This document shows positions 841-10,374 of a stretch of DNA of 64,000 nt, in pieces. The stretch spans positions 558,001 to 622,000 of the forward strand of contig NZ_QTSU01000002.1 of assembly GCF_003382365.1 (NCBI RefSeq), read 5' to 3'. Source of the DNA: Lysobacter silvisoli (GTDB taxonomy: Bacteria; Pseudomonadota; Gammaproteobacteria; Xanthomonadales; Xanthomonadaceae). The notes beneath the pieces were generated by a model. That model searched no databases and was not told the DNA's origin. It saw only the letters and a list, made by a program, of their open reading frames with translations. Both the position numbers and the translations under genes were made by a program. Every line of letters begins with the position of its first letter. Positions within the stretch are counted from its first letter, which is position 1.

Positions 841-1653
841 ATGGCCCTGCAACGAACCCTGTTCGATCTGGCCTTGGCTTACCCGCAATGGCAGGGTTCG
901 GGCCGTCACGAACACCTGCCGCGCGGCGCCGAGGCCGCCGCGGCGGTGTGCGGCCGCTACGCGCCGCTGGTACGCGTGCCGGCGCATGAGGGCCCGGCGC
1001 AGGACGCGCACGGCGTCAACCGCTGGGACGCGGTGTTCGCGCAGTTCCGCAGCGCGCACGACATCCTGTCGCGCTCCGGCGCGCGCCGCGTGCTCACCGC
1101 CGGCGGCGACTGCGCGGTGGACGTGGCGGTGATCGGCTATCTCAACGGCCTGCATCCTGGCCTGCGGGTGATCTGGATCGATGCCCACGCCGACGGCAAC
1201 ACGCCCGCCACCTCGCCCAGCGGCAATTTCCACGGCATGCCGGTGAGCGCGATCCTGGGACGTGCGCCCGAACCCATGCGTCCCTATCTGGGCGCGCCCC
1301 TGGAGCCCTCGCGCTTCCGCTACTTCGGCGTCCGCGACGAACTGGGCGACGCGGGCGATCACGCGCTGCGCAGCGAACTCGACCTGCGCCGGCTGGACCC
1401 GCAGGCGCCCATCGACGGGCCGGTGCACGTGCATTTCGACCTCGACGCGCTCGATCCGCGCGAGTTCCCGTACGTCGCCTATCCCGAAGGCGCTCTGGCC
1501 GTCGACGAGGCCGTGGCCCTGCTGCGCCGCATCTCCCGCGAAGCCGATCTGGTCGGCCTCACCGTGACCGAATTCGCCCCGGCCGACCAGCAACAGGCCC
1601 GCGCAGGCAGCCGGGTGATCGAAAGGCTTTGCGAGGCGGCCGTCGGCCGCTAG
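841..1653 (+). CDS. Arginase/agmatinase-family (ureohydrolase) protein
   Basis: This 270-residue protein has the manganese-site motifs of the ureohydrolase fold: GGDC at 88-91, DAHAD at 114-118, DLDALDP at 200-206 and a TEFAP segment around 243-247. Family members hydrolyse guanidino groups (arginine, agmatine, formiminoglutamate) or remove acetyl groups. Here the usual GGDH histidine ligand is a cysteine, a variant I associate with an uncharacterised arginase-like subfamily rather than with true arginases, so the substrate cannot be named. No arginine or polyamine genes are adjacent, and the gene appears monocistronic. It overlaps by four bases, tail to tail, the DUF11 remnant on the other strand. 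Confidence 0.8.
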   Translation: MALQRTLFDLALAYPQWQGSGRHEHLPRGAEAAAAVCGRYAPLVRVPAHEGPAQDAHGVNRWDAVFAQFRSAHDILSRSGARRVLTAGGDCAVDVAVIGYLNGLHPGLRVIWIDAHADGNTPATSPSGNFHGMPVSAILGRAPEPMRPYLGAPLEPSRFRYFGVRDELGDAGDHALRSELDLRRLDPQAPIDGPVHVHFDLDALDPREFPYVAYPEGALAVDEAVALLRRISREADLVGLTVTEFAPADQQQARAGSRVIERLCEAAVGR

Positions 1654-1990
1654 GCCGCGACGGTCGCCGAGACGCGACCCGCGCACGTCGCCGCGCCACG
1701 GCCGCGGCAGTTCACCGTGCACCGGAACGCGAGCGTGGCGCTCTGCCCGCTAGCCAGCGCGCCCAACGCGATCCCGGCGCCGGTCCGGCTGGCGACGGTG
1801 AACGCACCCGCCGGCACGCCGTTGCCGGTGACGGTCACGGCATTGGCCGCCGGGCAGGCGATCCCGGCGCCCGGCGCGTCGCGCACCACCGCGCCGGTCA
1901 CCGCGCCGGGGCCGTGGGTGTTGACGGTCAGCGTGCAAGTGCGGGGCGGGCCGCGAACGGCGGTGTCGCCCGGCGAACGGAGGTCGCGTT
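1650..1990 (-). pseudogene. Remnant of a DUF11-repeat exported protein (C-terminal piece)
   Basis: Minus-strand translation gives a recognisable DUF11-like end: CTLTVNTHGPGAVTGAVV, then a segment with IACPAANAV, TVTGNG and ASGQSATLAF, finishing near 1650. The similarity continues upstream of the only possible start (GTG at 1901) without a stop but also without an ATG or signal peptide, so the N-terminal part is missing. It resembles the DUF11 repeats of the larger gene at 34035. The call is a decayed or truncated surface-protein gene. The upstream boundary near 1990 is approximate. Confidence 0.45.
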
Positions 1991-2246
1991 TAGGCCATGG
2001 CCATGGTGTTTTAATCGCGCTCCGGTACTGGACTCAGACAGGTTTGGGAGCGGCCCGAACCAGGCTGAACGGACACTCATCGCGCGCTCGCAAACGCCGG
2101 CTACCGCACGTGCGCGGACGCGACCGGACAGGCACACTGCCATGAGCGTCCGTCGGAATCCGTTGCGTTATCGCCGGCGAAAGCGGAATCATTTCATCGC
2201 GACATGCCCGCGCATGCCGCCACCTTTCAGGACGAGAGATCCAGGC

Positions 2247-2915
2247 ATGCAAGCGCGCGAAACACAGTGCGACGGCGCGCTCCCCGCCGCTGCCGCCACC
2301 GACGCCGACCCGCCCGGCATTCCGGACAGCGCACTGGAATCGGTCACCGAACTGATCGCCCAGGCCCAGAACAAGCAGGCCATCCGTTGGGACCGCATCT
2401 ACTCGGTGCTGTACCAGGAGCTGCATGCGCTGGCGCAGCAGCAGATCCGCAAGCACTGGTCGGGACCGGCGCGCTCGTCCACGTCGCTGGTCAGCCGCGC
2501 CTGGCTGCGCCTGAGCCAGTCGCCGCTGGTTTACCAGAACCGCGACCACCTGGTCGGCGTGCTGGCGCGGGCGATGCGCTACGCCCTGATCGACGAGATC
2601 CGTCAGAGCCACGCCGCCAAGCGCCGCGACGTGGGCGGCGATGCGATCCTCAGCAGCCGGCCCGATGCCGAGGCCGAATACGATCCCGAGTTGGAGCGCA
2701 TGCTGGCTATCCACCAGGCGCTGGAATTGTTGGCCGAGTCCGAACCGCGCCTGGGCCAGGTCGTGGAGATGCGCTATTTCGCCGGCATGACCGATGCCGA
2801 GATCGCCGAAATCCTGAGCATCACGCCGCGCACCGTGCACCGCGATTGGGTGCGCGCACGCGCCTTTCTGAGCAGCGTGCTCGGCGACACGGCCCTGTAC
2901 GACGACGCGGAATAG
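2247..2915 (+). CDS. ECF-type RNA polymerase sigma factor paired with a Ser/Thr kinase
   Basis: This 222-residue sigma factor has a sigma region 2 at about 50-122 (promoter melting and -10 contact, ending in RYALIDEIRQSHAAKRRDVG) and a region 4 helix-turn-helix at about 155-212 (MTDAEIAEILSITPRTVHRDW). It resembles the ECF-like group transcribed next to serine/threonine kinases in Xanthomonads, where a kinase rather than an anti-sigma factor controls activity. The kinase gene begins 13 bases downstream, so one transcript is likely. The start at 2247 is chosen because a GAGAG stretch lies nine bases upstream; another ATG at 2214 lacks one. The targets are unknown. In Xanthomonas citri a comparable pair controls type VI secretion, but no such genes occur here. 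Confidence 0.85.
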   Translation: MQARETQCDGALPAAAATDADPPGIPDSALESVTELIAQAQNKQAIRWDRIYSVLYQELHALAQQQIRKHWSGPARSSTSLVSRAWLRLSQSPLVYQNRDHLVGVLARAMRYALIDEIRQSHAAKRRDVGGDAILSSRPDAEAEYDPELERMLAIHQALELLAESEPRLGQVVEMRYFAGMTDAEIAEILSITPRTVHRDWVRARAFLSSVLGDTALYDDAE

Positions 2916-2928
2916 CCTGCGCGCCCGC

Positions 2929-5892
2929 ATGCCGCCATCGCCGTCGGCCGCCATCAGGACCAAACTGCGCGCCCTGGCGCTGTTCGACCGCTATACCGAC
3001 CTGGGCGAGGCCGCTCGCGCGGGCATGCGCGATTCGCTGACGCACAGCGATCCCGAACTGCTCACGGCCTTGCTGGCGCTGGTCGCGGCAGCGGCGGCTC
3101 CCAGCCCTTTGGATACGCCGGCGCTGGAAACGGTAGCGCGCCGGGAGCAGCCGGCGCCGCCGGCCGACGAAGCGGTCTGCGAGACGCGCATCGGCACCCG
3201 CCTGGGCCCCTGGCGCATCCACCGCGCCATCGCCGACGGCGGCATGGGCACGGTGTACGAGGCCTATCGCGACGACGGCGAGTACCAGAAGCGGGTGGCG
3301 TTGAAATGCGTGCGTTCCAGGCTGATATCGCCCGCGCTGATGAATGCGTTCCTGGCCGAGCGCAGCCATCTGGCCGCGCTGGACCATCCCGGCATCGCCG
3401 ATCTGCTCGACGGCGGCATCGGCAGCGACGGACAGCCCTGGTTCGCCATGCGCTACGTCGACGGCGTCGCCGTGGACCTGTGGTGCGACACGCGCGGCGC
3501 CGCCTTGCGCGCGCGCGTGGAACTGCTCAAGCAGGCGTGCGACGCCGTGGCCTATGCCCATAGCCGCGGCGTCCTCCATCGCGACCTCAAGCCCTCCAAC
3601 CTGCTGGTCGCCGACGACGGCCGCCTGCAATTGGTCGACTTCGGCATTTCCGCGGCGCTGGGCCCGAACATCGCCGCCGATCACCCGCAGATCGCGCTTT
3701 CGCGCGCCTACGCCGCGCCGGAAGTGATGGCCGGTGCCGCCTATGGCCCTACCGGAGACATCTATGCGCTAGGCGCGCTGATGTACCGGTTGCTGGGCGC
3801 GGGCGCGCCGGCGCCGGAGTGGGGCATCTGGTCGATGCTGCCGGCGATGCGGCCCAAGGAGCCGGATGCGCTGTCCGCCAATGCCGCGCGCGCGACGCAG
3901 GAACAGGCCCGGCAGCGCGCGGCCGCCGACCCAGAAGACCTGTCCCGCCGCCTGAGCGGCGACCTCGATGCCATCGCCGCCAAAGCGGTGGCGGTCGATC
4001 CGGAGCGGCGCTACGCCAGCGCGCGCGCTTTAGGCGACGACCTGCAGCGATGGCTGGACGGACGCGCGGTCGAAGCCCGCAGCGGCGAGCGCTACTACCG
4101 CGTGCGGCGCTTCCTGCGTCGGCACCGCCTGACGATGGGCCTGGTCGCGATGCTGCTCCTGGCGCTGGCGTCCTCCCTCGGCGTGATGCTGCATCAACAA
4201 CGACGCATGGCCAGCGAAGCGCAGGCCAGCGAGGCCGTCGGCCGCCTGTTCGCCTCCACCCTGGGCAACGCGACGTTGTCGGGCATAGGCGCCACGCCGT
4301 TCTCTTCTCGTGAGCTGCTGGGCAAAACCGAGCAGGAACTGAACCAAATGCCGTTGGCGGAGCACGCCGAGCTGCACGCGCGCAGCCTGGCCGCTCTGGC
4401 CCGCGGCTACGCTGTCGTCGGCGACTATGGGCACGCGCAGGAGTTGGCGGAACGGGCGCAGGCCGTGTTGCAGGGACAAGCCGACCGCGACGGCTATGTC
4501 GCCGCCACGCAGCTGGCCCTGCTCAACACGCACGCGCAGCACGCGCAGGCCCAGGCGCTGGCACGCCGCTGGATCGGCCAGCTGCAAGACCGCGACGATC
4601 CCCGTTCGCGCCGCGCACGCTCCGGCTTCGAGGCGCAGCTGGCCACCGCGCAATGGGGACAGGGCGACCCGTACGGCGCACTGCGCACCATCGATGCGGC
4701 TCTCGCACACATCCCGGAGCACGGCGCCACCACCGATCGCGAACTGCTGGCCGAACTGCTGATCCTGCGCAGCAGTTTCAGAACCCTGCTGCTTCGCTTC
4801 CAGCAGGCGCGGGACGACGCATCGCGGGCGATCCTCCTTGCCGATCCGATCAACCCGGTACTGGCCGACGACGCACGCGAACGCCTGCTGCTGGTTTCTT
4901 TCGCGGCCAGCTCGACGGTGGACATCGCGGTGGCCCAGCGCCTGGTCGACAGCCGCCATCGCACGCTGGGAGAACGGCACCCCAAGACCGGACTCGCCTG
5001 GATCTATCTGGGGCAGGCCCAGCTATTGAGCGGCAACCAGGTCGATGCGCAAGAGCAAACGCTGACCGGCGAACGCCTGATCGAAGCCAGCTATGGCCGC
5101 GACCATCCGACCTATGCCTATGCGATCATCACCGGTTCCAACATCCGCAGCAGCAACGACGCGCGCGATAATTTGGCGGTCTTGCGGCGCGGCCTGGCCA
5201 TCTACCAGGCCACGCTGGGGCCCACGCATCCGCAAACGCTGCAAGCCAAGTACCGCATCGCCGCGCGCCTGGGCGATCTGGCGCCTTCGCTGCAACGGCC
5301 CGGCGACTTCGAGGAGTTGATCGGGTTGTTCGAGGACAACATCCGGATCAAGCGCGCCGGCCACTTGCCCGCGCCATGGGAGGAGCTGTATCTGGGGCGG
5401 GCGCTGACCCGGAAGGGCGGAGCGGCCAACCTGGAGGCCGGCGCGTCGTGGCTGCGCGTGAGCCAGGAGAACGTCCGCCGCTACTTCGCGCCGGACGACC
5501 TCTACGGCATGTTCACCCGCAACAGCGTGGCGGAATCGCGCTATCTGCGCGGCGACCCCGCGGGCGCGGACCGCGATTTCGCCCTCATCCGCGAACAGCT
5601 ACGCGGCAAGCCCGGCTTCGCCAACCAGGTCATGACCCACTACGCCTTGTTGTACCGCGCGGCCTACGCCCATCAGACCTGCCGGCGCGCGGAGGCCGAG
5701 CGCCTGCTGACCGAAGCCTACGACACCGATCTGGGCGTCACCGGCGCGCATAGCTTCATCACCCGCGACGCGCTCGCCTATCTGGAGCACTTCCGCCGCC
5801 ACGGCAACCTGCACAACGACGACTCGTCTTCGCTGCTGTATCCGGCGCTGGCGCCGGCCAATGCCGGGGCCGAACGCTGCCAAGGGCGTTGA
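2929..5892 (+). CDS. Membrane-anchored serine/threonine protein kinase with TPR-like sensor region
   Basis: This 987-residue protein begins with a cytoplasmic kinase domain at about 93-380: glycine loop ADGGMGTVYEA, invariant lysine in VALKC (K126), HRDLKPSN with catalytic D219, DFG at 237-239 and APEV at 263-266. All key catalytic residues are present. One membrane helix follows at about 402-422. The remaining 560 residues are helical repeats of TPR type and would lie in the periplasm, a plausible sensor. The gene follows the ECF sigma gene by 13 bases. The likely job is to phosphorylate and activate that sigma factor in response to an envelope or extracellular signal. The signal is unknown. 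Confidence 0.88.
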   Translation: MPPSPSAAIRTKLRALALFDRYTDLGEAARAGMRDSLTHSDPELLTALLALVAAAAAPSPLDTPALETVARREQPAPPADEAVCETRIGTRLGPWRIHRAIADGGMGTVYEAYRDDGEYQKRVALKCVRSRLISPALMNAFLAERSHLAALDHPGIADLLDGGIGSDGQPWFAMRYVDGVAVDLWCDTRGAALRARVELLKQACDAVAYAHSRGVLHRDLKPSNLLVADDGRLQLVDFGISAALGPNIAADHPQIALSRAYAAPEVMAGAAYGPTGDIYALGALMYRLLGAGAPAPEWGIWSMLPAMRPKEPDALSANAARATQEQARQRAAADPEDLSRRLSGDLDAIAAKAVAVDPERRYASARALGDDLQRWLDGRAVEARSGERYYRVRRFLRRHRLTMGLVAMLLLALASSLGVMLHQQRRMASEAQASEAVGRLFASTLGNATLSGIGATPFSSRELLGKTEQELNQMPLAEHAELHARSLAALARGYAVVGDYGHAQELAERAQAVLQGQADRDGYVAATQLALLNTHAQHAQAQALARRWIGQLQDRDDPRSRRARSGFEAQLATAQWGQGDPYGALRTIDAALAHIPEHGATTDRELLAELLILRSSFRTLLLRFQQARDDASRAILLADPINPVLADDARERLLLVSFAASSTVDIAVAQRLVDSRHRTLGERHPKTGLAWIYLGQAQLLSGNQVDAQEQTLTGERLIEASYGRDHPTYAYAIITGSNIRSSNDARDNLAVLRRGLAIYQATLGPTHPQTLQAKYRIAARLGDLAPSLQRPGDFEELIGLFEDNIRIKRAGHLPAPWEELYLGRALTRKGGAANLEAGASWLRVSQENVRRYFAPDDLYGMFTRNSVAESRYLRGDPAGADRDFALIREQLRGKPGFANQVMTHYALLYRAAYAHQTCRRAEAERLLTEAYDTDLGVTGAHSFITRDALAYLEHFRRHGNLHNDDSSSLLYPALAPANAGAERCQGR

Positions 5893-6057: not shown

Positions 6058-6828
6058 CTAGCCGCCGGTCGCTTTGCGCGTGGAGCCGGTCTGGGCGAAC
6101 CAGCGCTCGAAGCCGATCGCGCCCTGCCAGGCGGCGCCGGCCGGTACCAGGGTGTCGGTCTGCAACCGCGCACCGAAATACAGAGCGTTCTCGTCGCTGA
6201 CCACTACACGCGCGTCGCCGCTGGCCGCCATGAAGCGCCGGGCCAGGCCGGACAGCGGCTCACGCTCGGGCCCGGCGATTTCCACGATGCCGTTGGCCGG
6301 CGGCTGCAGCGCCAGCCGGGTGACCGCGTCGGCCACGTCGTCCGACGCGATGGGCTGCACCAGCGCCGGCGACAGATGCACCTGGTCGCCCACGCTGGCC
6401 GACTGGACGATGCCGGGCAGGAATTCGAAGAACTGGGTCGAGTGCACGATGGTGTAGGGCACGGCCGAGCCGCGGATCAGCGCCTCTTGCGCGATCTTGC
6501 CGCGGAAGTAGCCGCTGGCCGAGAGCTTGTCGGTGCCGACCACGGACAGGGCCAGGTGATGGCGCACGCCGGCCCGGGCCTCGGCCGTCAGGATGTTGCG
6601 GCCGGCGGTCTGGAAGAACGACAGCACCGCCGCGTCTTCGAACGAGGGCGAGTTGGCCAGGTCGACCACGACCTCGGCACCGGCCATGGCCTCGTCCAGC
6701 CCCGCGCCCGACAGGATGTCGATGCCGGTGGACGGCGCGGCGACCACCGCTTCATGCCCAAGCTCGCGCAGGCGTGCGACCACCTTGCTGCCGATCAGTC
6801 CGGTACCGCCGATCACCACGATTTTCAT
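6058..6828 (-). CDS. NmrA-like NAD(P)-binding oxidoreductase/epimerase-type protein
   Basis: This 256-residue protein starts with an N-terminal Rossmann fold (MKIVVIGGTGLIGSKV), typical of atypical short-chain dehydrogenases of the NmrA/NAD(P)H-binding group. There is no YxxxK catalytic pair at the usual place, which suits NmrA-like redox sensors or quinone-oxidoreductase relatives more than classical SDRs. The start at 6828 is chosen because the Rossmann strand begins there; the open frame extends upstream without support. The LysR gene at 6976-8004 lies just upstream on the same strand. Such oxidoreductases are frequent partners of ECF41 sigma factors, and one is encoded at 9487, so membership of that regulon is possible. 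Confidence 0.75.
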   Translation of the reverse strand: MKIVVIGGTGLIGSKVVARLRELGHEAVVAAPSTGIDILSGAGLDEAMAGAEVVVDLANSPSFEDAAVLSFFQTAGRNILTAEARAGVRHHLALSVVGTDKLSASGYFRGKIAQEALIRGSAVPYTIVHSTQFFEFLPGIVQSASVGDQVHLSPALVQPIASDDVADAVTRLALQPPANGIVEIAGPEREPLSGLARRFMAASGDARVVVSDENALYFGARLQTDTLVPAGAAWQGAIGFERWFAQTGSTRKATGG

Positions 6829-6975: not shown

Positions 6976-8004
6976 TCACGCCGCCGCTTCGGCCGCGGCG
7001 GCGTACGGCGCCTCGCTCTGAGCGTGGTACTCGCCCCACCTCGCGCAATCCAGATTCAGTGCGCGTACGTGGGTGGTGGCGAAGTCGATGAAGGCGCGCA
7101 TGCGCTTGGGCAACTGGCGCCGGCTCAGGTAGCACAGGTAATGCCCGCCGTCGTCGGGCGCGTAGCGGCCCAGGCAGGTCGCCAGCCGGCCGCTGCGCAG
7201 CAGTTCGCAGGCCTGGAACGCGGGCAACTGCGCCAGGCCCTGCCCGTCCAGCACCGCCTGCAGCATCAGCTCGTCGTCGTTGTACACGCAATCGCCTTGC
7301 GGGAACACGCGCTGGGCGCGGCCGTCGATGCGGAATTCCCAAGCGCGCAGGCGGCCGTTGCCCAGCCGGCGGTTGATGCACGCGTGATCGGCCAGTTCCT
7401 CCACCGACGCGGGCAGGCCGAGGCGGCGCGCGTACTCCGGCGAAGCGCAGACCAGCATCTGCATCGGCACCAGTTGCTTGGCGATGACCTGGCTGTCGTC
7501 CAAGCGGCCGTCGCGGAAGACCAGGTCGATGCGATCCACCGCCAGGTCGACCGTGCGCTCGTCCAGCACCAGCTCGACGCCGATGGCCGGATAACGCGCG
7601 CGGAACTCGCCCAGCAGCGGCGCCAGCACCTTGCGGCCGAATGCGGGCGTGGCGCCGATGCGCAGCTGCCCGCGCGGCGGCCCGTCGCGCAGGTCGCGGA
7701 TCTCCTCCAGCGCCTGCATGATGCGCTCCACGCCGGGGCGGCAGTTTTCCAGGAACAGTTCGCCCTCGCCGGTCAGCGAGGTGGAGCGCGTGGTCCTGAC
7801 GAACAGCCGCGCGCCCAGGTGGTCTTCCAGGCGCTGCACGCTGCGGCTCACCGCCGAGCGGCCCACGCCCAAGCGGTCGGCGGCGCGCGCGAAGCTGCCT
7901 TCGCTGGCCACGGCGATGAAGGCCACCACGCCGGCGTAGCTGGCCGAGAAGCTGGTGGACAGCGTGTCCGGCCGGTCGGTGGCTAACGGAGTCATCGTAT
8001 TCAT
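6976..8004 (-). CDS. LysR-family transcriptional regulator
   Basis: This 342-residue protein is of LysR type. Its N-terminal winged helix is complete (FIAVASEGSFARAADRLGVG, then SAVSRSVQRLEDHLGARLF), and an effector-binding domain of periplasmic-binding-protein fold follows, starting around GQLRIGATPAFG. The start at 8004 gives a short leader before the DNA-binding domain; in-frame starts further upstream would add low-complexity sequence. It is co-directional with the NmrA-like gene, which it may control; no divergent target is intact. Its 5' end abuts the broken sigma fragment at 8005-8257, which lies on the same strand in another frame and probably shares its promoter region. Confidence 0.85.
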   Translation of the reverse strand: MNTMTPLATDRPDTLSTSFSASYAGVVAFIAVASEGSFARAADRLGVGRSAVSRSVQRLEDHLGARLFVRTTRSTSLTGEGELFLENCRPGVERIMQALEEIRDLRDGPPRGQLRIGATPAFGRKVLAPLLGEFRARYPAIGVELVLDERTVDLAVDRIDLVFRDGRLDDSQVIAKQLVPMQMLVCASPEYARRLGLPASVEELADHACINRRLGNGRLRAWEFRIDGRAQRVFPQGDCVYNDDELMLQAVLDGQGLAQLPAFQACELLRSGRLATCLGRYAPDDGGHYLCYLSRRQLPKRMRAFIDFATTHVRALNLDCARWGEYHAQSEAPYAAAAEAAA

Positions 8005-8257
8005 AGCGGCGGCGCCTGTTCCTCTTTGCCCAACCGGCGCAGGCGCGTGCGTACTCGACATGCCGGCGACACAGCTCCGCCGGCAGGCCGGTCATGCGGG
8101 TGATGGCTTCGTAGTCGGCCTCGAACACCTCGTGCAGCAGGAAGGCCGCACGCACCTCCGGCGCCAAGGCCGCCAGTGCGGCCATGAACTCGGTCCAGAC
8201 CCGGTCCGCGCCGCAGGCCGGCGCGGCGGCGGCTTCCTCGATTTGCGCGCTAGTCAT
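8005..8257 (-). pseudogene. Fragment of an ECF41/SigJ-like sigma factor (region 4 only)
   Basis: Translated from an ATG at 8257, this frame carries a sigma region 4-like segment (APEVRAAFLLHEVFEADYEA and onward) that parallels SPEARAAYLLREVFDADYPD in the intact sigma factor at 9487. Regions 2 and the C-terminal NTF2-like domain are absent. After about 84 codons the frame runs, without similarity, through the LysR gene, so no natural stop is seen. A promoter-like element matching that of the intact sigma gene lies eight bases upstream of the ATG (8266-8292). It is best read as a rearranged paralogue. It might still yield a short region-4 peptide, but this is not shown. Confidence 0.5.
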
Positions 8258-8265
8258 ACCTCCAG

Positions 8266-8292
8266 GTCGCAGCCGCGCCGCGGCTTGTGACA
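8266..8292 (-). promoter_or_regulatory. ECF41-like promoter upstream of the sigma fragment
   Basis: On the minus strand TGTCACA (8292-8286), a 16-base spacer and CGAC (8269-8266) stand eight bases before the ATG at 8257. ECF41 sigma factors are known to use a TGTCACA -35 element with a CGTC-like -10. The same arrangement, with the same spacer length and the same AGCC after the -35, occurs before the intact sigma gene at 9487. The short distance implies an almost leaderless transcript. Confidence 0.55.
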
Positions 8293-8433
8293 GCCACCGG
8301 CGCATTGGTGCACAGCGCTCAACACCGCGCGTCCGCGCACCGCTCTACTCGCCCAGCGTGGCGCTGCCTAGATTGGTCCGAACCGAAAGGCGGACCGGCC
8401 TTTCGGGCCTCCCCTACTCCCTGGAGCGACACC

Positions 8434-8913
8434 ATGAGCCAACGCATCGACTACCAGAAGCAGTCGCCGGAACTGTTCAAGAAGTTCGTCGAGTTCAACC
8501 TGCTGACCAAGGACAGCGCGATCGAGGAACCCATCCGCGATCTCGTCGTCATCCGCGCCTCGCAGATCAACGGCTGCACCTTCTGCCTGGACATGCATGT
8601 CAAGCAGGCCACCATCCACGGCGAACGCCCGCTGCGCCTGCACCACGTCGCCGGCTGGCGCGATTCCAACCTGTTCGCTCCGCGCGAGCGCGCCGCCCTG
8701 GCCTGGACCGAGGTGCTGACCCAGCTGCCGGCGCAGGGCGTGGCGGACGAGCTGTACGAGCGCGTGCGCGGCCAGCTGTCGGAAAAGGAACTGTCGGACC
8801 TGACCTTCCTGGTGATGGCGATCAACGCCTGGAACCGCGTCAACGTCGGCTTCCGTACCGTGCCCGGCACCTACGATCAGGCGTTCGGCCTGGATAAGGC
8901 GCAGTTGTCCTAA
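8434..8913 (+). CDS. Carboxymuconolactone decarboxylase/AhpD-like protein of an ECF41 locus
   Basis: This 159-residue protein of the AhpD/CMD fold has the redox-type active site ASQINGCTFCLDMH, with CxxC and a histidine four residues later. Such proteins work as alkylhydroperoxidase-like or thiol-disulphide enzymes; those with an intact CxxC are more likely redox-active than true decarboxylases. ECF41 sigma factors are typically encoded beside a carboxymuconolactone decarboxylase-like, oxidoreductase or epimerase gene, and one (9487) follows after the cupin gene. The start at 8434 is supported by CTGGAG eight bases upstream; the frame extends to 8287 without coding signs. Confidence 0.85.
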   Translation: MSQRIDYQKQSPELFKKFVEFNLLTKDSAIEEPIRDLVVIRASQINGCTFCLDMHVKQATIHGERPLRLHHVAGWRDSNLFAPRERAALAWTEVLTQLPAQGVADELYERVRGQLSEKELSDLTFLVMAINAWNRVNVGFRTVPGTYDQAFGLDKAQLS

Positions 8914-9003
8914 GCGACGCTGTCCTGAGCAACGCCGTCTAAGCCGCATCGCCGGGTGCCGCGCGCGCCCGGCGCCCGTTAACGGCCACCACCGGAGCCC
9001 GCC

Positions 9004-9432
9004 ATGCGCATCGCCTCATCGCTCTGTCTCACCACCGTCTTACTGTGGTCCGGCGCAGCCGCGGCCCACGGCCCGTCCCCGCACGCCGCCGCCGGCAACG
9101 CGCCGCCGCCTACCGTCGCCGAAGTCATGACCCAGCGCCTGCCCGAATACCCGGGCAAGGAAGCGCTGATGATCACCGTCGAGTATCCGCCCGGCGGTGC
9201 CGACCCGGTCCACCGCCACGACGCCCACGCCTTCGTCTACGTGCTGGAGGGCGCGATCGTGATGGGCGTGGCCGGCGGCAAGGAAGTCACCCTGAAAGCC
9301 GGCCAGAGCTTCCACGAAGGCCCCGCGGACCTGCACACGATCGGCCGCAACGCCAGCCAGACCGAGCCGGCCAAGTTCCTGGTGCTGCTGCTGAAGGACA
9401 TCGACAAGCCGGCCTTGATTCCGGTGCCCTGA
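9004..9432 (+). CDS. Exported cupin-domain protein
   Basis: This 142-residue protein has an N-terminal signal peptide (about 20 residues, ending GAAAAHG) and a single cupin barrel. The first cupin motif is visible as PVHRHDAHAFVYVLEG, with histidines and a glutamate as likely metal ligands; the second motif is around FHEGPADLHTIG. Small periplasmic cupins of this sort bind a metal or small ligand, and their chemistry cannot be told from sequence. It lies between the CMD-like gene and the ECF41-type sigma gene on the same strand, so it is probably part of that stress locus. Confidence 0.8.
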   Translation: MRIASSLCLTTVLLWSGAAAAHGPSPHAAAGNAPPPTVAEVMTQRLPEYPGKEALMITVEYPPGGADPVHRHDAHAFVYVLEGAIVMGVAGGKEVTLKAGQSFHEGPADLHTIGRNASQTEPAKFLVLLLKDIDKPALIPVP

Positions 9433-9450
9433 CGGACGGCCGCGGCGCGG

Positions 9451-9477
9451 CGTCACAAGCCCGCCCCGCAGTGCGAC
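9451..9477 (+). promoter_or_regulatory. ECF41-like autoregulatory promoter of the sigma gene
   Basis: CGTCACA (9451-9457), a 16-base spacer (9458-9473) and CGAC (9474-9477) lie nine bases before the ATG at 9487. The spacing and the AGCC following the -35 match the minus-strand element at 8266-8292. The layout predicts transcription starting at or just before the start codon, and autoregulation by the encoded sigma factor. Confidence 0.55.
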
Positions 9478-9486
9478 CATGGATTC

Positions 9487-10374
9487 ATGGACCCCAGTAC
9501 CGACCTTTTTCTTCAGCTGCAGCCGCGCCTGCTGGGCGTGGCCTACCGCATGCTCGGCTCCCTCGCCGAAGCCGAGGATGTGGTGCAGGACGTCTGGCTG
9601 GGCTGGAACGCCGCCGCGCCGGGCGAGATCCTGGACCCGGAAGCCTGGCTGGTGACCACCACCAGCCGGCGCTCCATCGACCGCCTGCGCCGCGCGCGCA
9701 GCGAACGCGAGCGCTATGCGGGCATCTGGCTGCCCGAGCCGGTCATCACCGCAGCTCCCGCCACACCCGAGGAGCTGCAGGAAGCCAGCAGCGATCTCTC
9801 GCTCGCGTTCCTGACCGTGCTCGAACGGCTCTCGCCCGAGGCGCGCGCCGCCTACCTGCTGCGCGAAGTGTTCGACGCCGACTACCCCGACATCGCCCGC
9901 GTGCTCGACAAGAACGAAGCCGCCTGCCGCCAGATCGTGCACCGCGCCAAGAGCCAGCTGCGCGAGGAGCGCCCGCGTTATGTGGTCTCGGCCGAAGCCC
10001 ACCAGCGGCTGATGCGCCGCTTCGCCGAGGCCTGGTCCAACGCCGACCTGCAGGCGATGAAGGAACTGATGGCCGACTCGGCCAGCCTGATCGGCGACGG
10101 CGGCGGCATCGTCAGCAGCTTCCCCCAGCCCATGGTGGGCGGCGCGCGCGTGGCCCAGCTGTTGTACGCCTGCACGCTGCGGCGCGGGCACGAGCTGCGC
10201 CTGGAACTGGCCTGGATCAACGGCCGCCTGGGCCTGCTGCGCTACTTCGGCGACGAGCTGGAATCGGCGCAGTACTACGACAGCGACGGCGAGCGCATCA
10301 CCGGCGTGTACGTGCAGCGCAATCCGGACAAGCTGCGGCGCATCGCCGCGGACCGACTGACGCTACTGCACTAG
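9487..10374 (+). CDS. sigJ: ECF41-type (SigJ-like) sigma factor with C-terminal NTF2-like domain
   Basis: This 295-residue protein contains sigma region 2 (about 8-75), the ECF41 hallmark WLPEP linker at 81-85, region 4 at about 105-163 and a SnoaL/NTF2-like C-terminal domain from about 170. In this family the C-terminal domain replaces an anti-sigma factor, and its DGGGK and NPDKL motifs tune activity. Here NPDKL is present at 279-283, but the first motif reads DGGGI (204-208), lacking the lysine. The ATG at 9487 follows a promoter-like element by nine bases and has no ribosome binding site, suggesting leaderless translation. The tail overlaps the convergent gene at 10363 by 12 bases. Confidence 0.88.
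   Translation: MDPSTDLFLQLQPRLLGVAYRMLGSLAEAEDVVQDVWLGWNAAAPGEILDPEAWLVTTTSRRSIDRLRRARSERERYAGIWLPEPVITAAPATPEELQEASSDLSLAFLTVLERLSPEARAAYLLREVFDADYPDIARVLDKNEAACRQIVHRAKSQLREERPRYVVSAEAHQRLMRRFAEAWSNADLQAMKELMADSASLIGDGGGIVSSFPQPMVGGARVAQLLYACTLRRGHELRLELAWINGRLGLLRYFGDELESAQYYDSDGERITGVYVQRNPDKLRRIAADRLTLLH

Follow-up and report, generated by a model that had tools for sequence, protein, structure and literature searches.

A 64 kb window of the Lysobacter silvisoli genome, by which we mean the whole stretch of DNA that was analysed (its genome is labelled G000 in the genome comparisons), contains an intact sigma factor gene of the extracytoplasmic function (ECF) group ECF41 and, on the opposite strand, a small gene for a stand-alone sigma region 4 (sigma4), which we call the solo gene and read as that of a putative feedback modulator of the sigma factor. 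On the plus strand, genes for a carboxymuconolactone decarboxylase (CMD)/AhpD-like protein (8434..8913; CMD, 3.7e-17) and a cupin (9004..9432; Cupin_2, 1e-15) stand before an ECF41-type promoter, CGTCACA-N16-CGAC (9451..9477), which ends 9 nt before the ATG of the sigma factor gene (9487..10374, 295 aa). The other unit is read from the minus strand. Its promoter, TGTCACA-N16-CGAC (8266..8292), stops 8 nt short of the solo gene, whose ATG is at 8257 and whose first 80 codons take up 8018..8257. A LysR-type regulator follows (6976..8004; HTH_1 6.8e-21, LysR_substrate 2.4e-41), and the third gene encodes an NmrA-like NAD(P)-binding protein (6058..6828; NAD_binding_10 4.6e-9), the start of which we set at MKIVVIGG by choice. 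The locus is best explained as an ECF41 module of two units, usually with AhpD, cupin and ECF41 on one strand and solo sigma4, LysR and NmrA on the other.

The gene at 9487-10374 is, judged by its sequence, an ECF41/SigJ-type sigma factor, as an earlier reading of the window (the original prediction) had proposed. Regions 2 and 4 are found in one chain (PF04542 1.3e-16, PF08281 3.1e-12), the SigJ/SigX4 family model TIGR02957 gives 327 bits against a cut-off of 323, and the SigJ structure 5xe7 is matched over residues 8-276 (E 2.6e-42), which covers a C-terminal extension of about 100 residues and makes the ECF41 extension homologous to that of SigJ. Matches of the extension to Pfam SnoaL_2, SnoaL_3 and DUF4440 are below the cut-offs, and the AlphaFold model of the full protein (pLDDT 59.5) is too poor to place it. 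The linker between sigma2 and sigma4 reads GIWLPEP, with W81-P85 invariant in 12 homologues, and the protein also has DGGG and NPDKL segments. WLPEP is a motif named for ECF41 (PMC3426412), and the gene shares both this linker and the C-terminal extension with ECF41 factors that have a COE neighbour (SigJ, Ecf41Bli, Ecf41Rsp). The activity of ECF41 factors is described as set by their own extension, apparently without an anti-sigma factor; the B. licheniformis protein without the whole extension hardly bound RNA polymerase, and a partial truncation was hyperactive (PMC3426412).

The twin promoters lie exactly where the original prediction had placed them. YGTCACA-N16-CGAC has two matches in the window, just the twin sites, where 0.10 would be expected, and a count of two was not attained in any of 100 shuffles; with this expectation and a fixed ATG spacing in 36 genomes, we reject coincidence. 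The AGCC after both -35 elements, which had been counted as further agreement, is incidental, since it is found in 2 of 31 solo promoters. In the proposed scan of the genome for the motif, with a spacer of 15-17 and CGWC, the bare motif is near chance in its own genome (14 matches, 11 in the reversed control), and in the same scan only the twin sites match locally, with none before the CMD gene. It is the fixed distance to the ATG and the recurrence across the 36 genomes with the locus that give the promoters their significance. All 31 solo sequences have nGT(C/A)ACA-N16-CG(A/T)C with the ATG 8 (29), 9 (1) or 10 (1) nt further on, and the promoter of the solo unit is kept also in G004, G009, G278 and G350 despite their damaged or lost solo genes. 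At the partner ECF41 gene, 19 of the 36 genomes have the same element, 8 or 9 nt ahead of the ATG. When promoter and ATG were searched for together, at a spacing of 8-9 nt, the 36 genomes gave 64 matches, of which 35 are at the solo/LysR unit (all genomes but G288), 19 at ECF41 and 10 elsewhere; the reversed control gave 9. Because the matches off the locus resemble this control in number, the promoter with its nearby ATG marks essentially these two units only, which form the predicted ECF41 regulon. A wide regulon is rejected on the same numbers; one of the ten matches adjoins another ECF41-like gene of G288. A regulon of two units agrees with the single-target view of ECF41 of Wecke et al. 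2012 (PMC3426412), the second target here, in comparison with their single one, being the solo-LysR-NmrA unit.

Both units are probably transcribed by ECF41, as the target promoter of the group, TGTCACA-n16-CGTC, is predicted at its own gene and at the other unit with a -10 element one base off the published consensus, CGAC instead of CGTC. The spacing suggests nearly leaderless transcripts that start at or next to the ATG. The promoters here end 8-10 nt before the ATG, whereas published start sites of ECF41 promoters leave a 22/23 nt leader (PMC3426412). That the solo promoter may feed the LysR and NmrA genes, another earlier suggestion, is consistent with a unit that runs into both of them, which is support from sequence only. 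Upstream of the solo promoter, a conserved box reads GTTG-N9-CACCAA in the window (8305..8323, minus strand) and GTTG-N9-CAYCAR or GGTG-N9-CACCAA in 31/31 solo sequences, by a pattern that was picked after inspection of the sequences; we regard it as a candidate operator for the LysR protein. The genome of the window has another ECF41-like gene on contig 3 (270551-271551; a sigma4 match in a frame of 322 aa), with TGTCACA-16-CGTC about 0.8 kb upstream of the match. This site has CGTC where the window pair has CGAC, which may reflect a difference in -10 preference between the two factors.

Pfam Sigma70_r4_2 is recognised in the frame from 8257 (E 1e-6), as is the SigJ model (E 8e-10), and the frame is 42% identical to the adjacent sigma factor over 62 columns, in agreement with the original prediction of a sigma region 4 resembling ECF41. 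Fifteen solo proteins were scanned and all match the SigJ models and Sigma70_r4_2; four also match PhyR_sigma-like weakly (best E 0.0038), and the Pfam scan of these 15 found no region 2 and no receiver domain. Solo frames have 83-91 codons, and the window's own is taken as 80. It misses the stop of its relatives and continues to 6902, because the stretch that opens with its ATG and closes with the LysR ATGA (8001) is 257 nt long; the LysR ATG at 8004 is the counterpart of the start that the solo stop overlaps in the relatives.

When 60 relatives were searched, the 80-residue piece turned up in seven genomes of the same genus, in short frames (88-127 aa) next to an ECF41 gene, and among 92 relatives 10 of the 80 loci examined have a solo, all in Lysobacteraceae; the ten named loci include Luteimonas panaciterrae, Lysobacter niastensis, L. 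soli, L. gilvus and L. lactosilyticus. Partner-type ECF41 (E <= 1e-85) was found by profile search in 35 of 395 genomes of the family, in 6 of 54 genera; G119, which has the remainder of the locus but not this gene, makes a 36th genome. Reading of the loci showed the solo intact, just before LysR, in 31 of these 36 (those of G410, G230 and G286 were confirmed in this way). LysR adjoins the site in 36/36 and NmrA in 34/36; NmrA was not found in the 8.5 kb searched in G278, and the locus of G168 is too short to tell. The solo counts are lower bounds, with at most 13-14 candidates scored per genome in the profile searches. Among the 31 solo sequences, the window's own is represented by its 80 codons and MMG2/G256/G267 by a single entry, and the 33 partner ECF41 sequences compared omit G256, G385 and G398. 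Outside the family, no solo was found at E 1e-13 among 369 genomes drawn from the class; there were matches in four genomes and, besides the window's own solo, all lie within frames of at least 313 aa. Searches of an open-licence library for stand-alone region 4 proteins and for ECF41 in Lysobacter turned up SigO/RsoA, and among the titles and abstracts listed there was none on an ECF41-derived sigma4 gene.

A branch with SH-aLRT 100 separates all 31 solos from the remaining sigma4 domains of the tree (33 from partner ECF41 proteins and 68 from further ECF41 proteins), which is midpoint-rooted, is built on 60 columns and has many open forks, and we reject independent decay in several lineages, as the solos are one clade. 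The ratio of nonsynonymous to synonymous changes per site (pN/pS), uncorrected for repeated hits, is 0.41 when 12 pairs are pooled (288 nonsynonymous and 245 synonymous changes on 2246 and 787 sites; binomial p 2e-23), with single pairs from 0.17 to 0.78, and NG86 dN/dS is 0.15 to 0.56 among the 28 closest pairs listed. By these sequence comparisons the solo is a maintained single-domain paralogue of ECF41 under purifying selection, and not debris across the family.

The small frame might be a leader gene with an inert product, its translation only setting the use of the LysR start codon. The solo stop is ATGA or GTGA, overlapping a start for the gene that follows, in 27 of the 30 sequences besides that of the window; after loss of the sigma4 core G350 still has a 30-codon remnant frame, and in G009 the ATG is fused to LysR. 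We hold this to be unlikely, since the constraint tracks the sigma4 fold: pN/pS is 0.24 in helices 1-2 and 0.25 in the first helix of the helix-turn-helix (HTH), compared with 0.38 in the recognition helix and with 0.52 and 0.74 for the tails, and seven residues (W21, F24, L31, L41, G57, C63, A70) are invariant in 31/31.

The model of the solo from G012 has four helices in a sigma4 fold (pLDDT 84). The first ten Foldseek rows for it are all ECF sigma structures (probability 1.00, E from 0.008 up), and the best match of the solo profile to sequences in the PDB is SigJ 5xe7 (E 4e-7). The numbering of sigmaE was mapped through one structural alignment of this model with the sigmaE4-DNA structure 2h27_D (69 residues, gapless by its ranges, rmsd 2.4). 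R176 and F175 of sigmaE make base-reading contacts with the -35 element (PMC6713349). At the equivalent of R176 there is an arginine in 4/31 solos and in 33/33 partner ECF41 proteins, and at that of F175 a histidine in 0/31 and 30/33, respectively. A serine invariant in ECF41 is tryptophan in 31/31 solos, the ECF41-invariant K142 and E144 are absent in 31/31, and the mean charge of the recognition segment is +0.84 in solos versus +3.30 in ECF41. With the reading residues and the charge mostly lost, sigma4 seems to be kept as a fold and not as a reader of the -35 element. What would make the solo an ECF sigma factor is absent: region 2 is missing, and region 4 is a predicted fold in which the residues of a -35-reading recognition helix are mostly lost.

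The solo might nevertheless still bind the TGTCACA element and block ECF41 at both promoters. The -35 element is common to both units, the HTH fold is kept in the model, and the equivalents of R171 and R178 are retained in 28/31 solos. The substitutions just described and the small net charge of the recognition segment speak against such a competitor on the DNA, as does the weaker constraint on the recognition helix than on other parts of the fold, and we consider it slightly less likely still than a leader gene.

We hypothesize instead that the solo is a feedback modulator of ECF41, induced by ECF41 and acting by protein contact, to which we assign a probability of roughly 0.55. The twin promoters would let ECF41 drive the solo unit as well as its own gene, and the solo would not be able to act as a sigma factor alone, because it has no region 2. 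An ECF41-type promoter in front of ECF41's own domain is best read as feedback through a protein surface. This would be the surface that is normally used by the sigma4 of ECF41, either the beta flap of RNA polymerase, whose tip helix is enfolded by sigma4 in the ECF holoenzyme (PMC6411747), or the fused C-terminal extension of ECF41. Given the behaviour of the truncated ECF41 proteins, binding of the solo to the extension could have an effect in either direction. Both the binding partner and the sign of the feedback are put forward with reserve; we lean towards negative rather than positive feedback by about two to one. A more specific version, which we offer tentatively and as somewhat less than an even chance, is that the detached sigma4 acts in trans on its parent and competes with the sigma4 of ECF41 for the extension or the beta flap, a sigma mimicry without an anti-sigma factor. 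The sigma factor would then have its regulator fused on one side, and the decoy would be a loose copy of its own domain.

Several observations weigh against a modulator of this kind. Expression of the solo, its binding and any regulation by it are predictions. Its sigma4 domain is dispensable: G009 lacks it, G350 has an in-frame deletion of the core, the copy in G004 is open but highly diverged, that in G278 is frameshifted just after the ATG, and that in G000 runs on. G119 keeps the solo and its promoter without the partner ECF41; the best ECF41 match there is 40% identical and lies on another contig. In MMG2, bactP and L. soli, the ECF41 gene itself has no promoter that we could recognise. 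The retained equivalents of R171 and R178 mean that some affinity for DNA may remain, and the flap version is weakened by the poor binding of RNA polymerase by the extension-less B. licheniformis protein (PMC3426412). For the G012 model Foldseek gave no match at E <= 0.001, the domain being small and helical, and the Z of 9.8 in the alignment with 2h27_D is not far above the level that helical models reach through a common arrangement. Because the structural matches are weak, the assignment to the sigma4 family rests mainly on the sequence profiles.

The original prediction saw in the frame at 8257 a duplicated ECF41 copy that had lost most of its coding part and kept its promoter. Duplication fits the resemblance to ECF41, and the idea of a broken copy is partly right for the genome of the window, where the frame is out of phase at its end and misses the common stop; four other genomes have damaged or lost copies. 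For the family as a whole a remnant is contradicted, and we regard it as very unlikely, because the solos form one clade across six genera, are intact in 31/36 and are under purifying selection. Loci without sigma similarity at this place, which had been named as counter-evidence to the prediction, are confined to G009 and G350, both of which have lost the sigma4 core. Finally, that the solo pairs with a separate region-2-only protein into a split sigma factor, for which a sigma4-only protein with a sigma-type promoter and the precedent of SigO with RsoA (PMC8103513) could be cited, is highly improbable, since the DNA-reading residues are mostly lost and no region-2-only gene was noticed among the open reading frames around the locus (no genome-wide search was made).

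The locus resembles the ECF41 systems described in the TGTCACA-N16-CG(A/T)C promoters and in the CMD and oxidoreductase-like neighbours; it differs from them in the extra sigma4-only paralogue at the head of a second unit. The phage T4 protein gp33 is a detached sigma4-like binder of the beta flap beside a region-2-like protein, gp55. There it is a phage co-activator, whereas the neighbour here is a full ECF factor. In SigO/RsoA there is likewise a protein with region 4 and no region 2 (PMC8103513), and the difference again is that the solo stands beside a complete ECF sigma factor and has mostly lost its reading residues. There is also a likeness to the EcfG/NepR/PhyR system, in which the sigma-like domain of PhyR has degenerate promoter-reading residues like the solo, and phyR is often divergent from its sigma gene and under the promoters of that sigma (PMC8103513), a layout alike to that of the solo. 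The weak PhyR_sigma-like matches of four solos point the same way. Unlike PhyR, the solos scanned have neither a receiver domain nor a region 2 part, and ECF41 differs from that system in having its regulator fused and seemingly no anti-sigma factor (PMC3426412).

The ECF41 group of ECF factors is widespread and seems to lack an anti-sigma factor (PMC3426412), and the solo offers a handle on its switching. It is small, can be removed genetically, is made of a single ECF41 domain and is predicted to be in ECF41's own regulon, and G000, G278, G004, G009 and G350 provide natural comparisons. Frames of 80-90 codons with a sigma domain, dismissed as fragments, can conceal regulators.

The genes around the module vary. 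AhpD and cupin are absent from the 8 kb around the locus of G230, and AhpD from the 8 kb of MMG2 and L. soli (the neighbour genes of G364, G168, G202, G256 and G267 were checked in 3.2 kb loci only), and there are two adjacent cupin genes beside AhpD, not one, in L204 (G119) and L203 (G278). In L030, the locus of G009, from 5467 on, the ATG 9 nt past the ECF41-type promoter is fused in frame to LysR, which gives the regulator a proline-rich N-terminal extension. Seven betaproteobacterial loci (L072, L073, L077, L080, L083, L084, L087) have ECF41, AhpD, cupin and LysR all in one direction, with NmrA next where the flank reaches, except in L077, where it was not seen. No second sigma4 match appeared in these seven, and the divergent layout with the solo then reflects a rearrangement on one side or the other. 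Elsewhere in the window, the frame 1629-2915 encodes another ECF sigma factor (TIGR02999 Sig-70_X6, 150.7 bits against a cut-off of 126, residues 238-418) and directly precedes a large Ser/Thr kinase gene (2929-5892; Pkinase 1.1e-32), a sigma/kinase pair (1629-5892) which we take to be of a type resembling ECF43.

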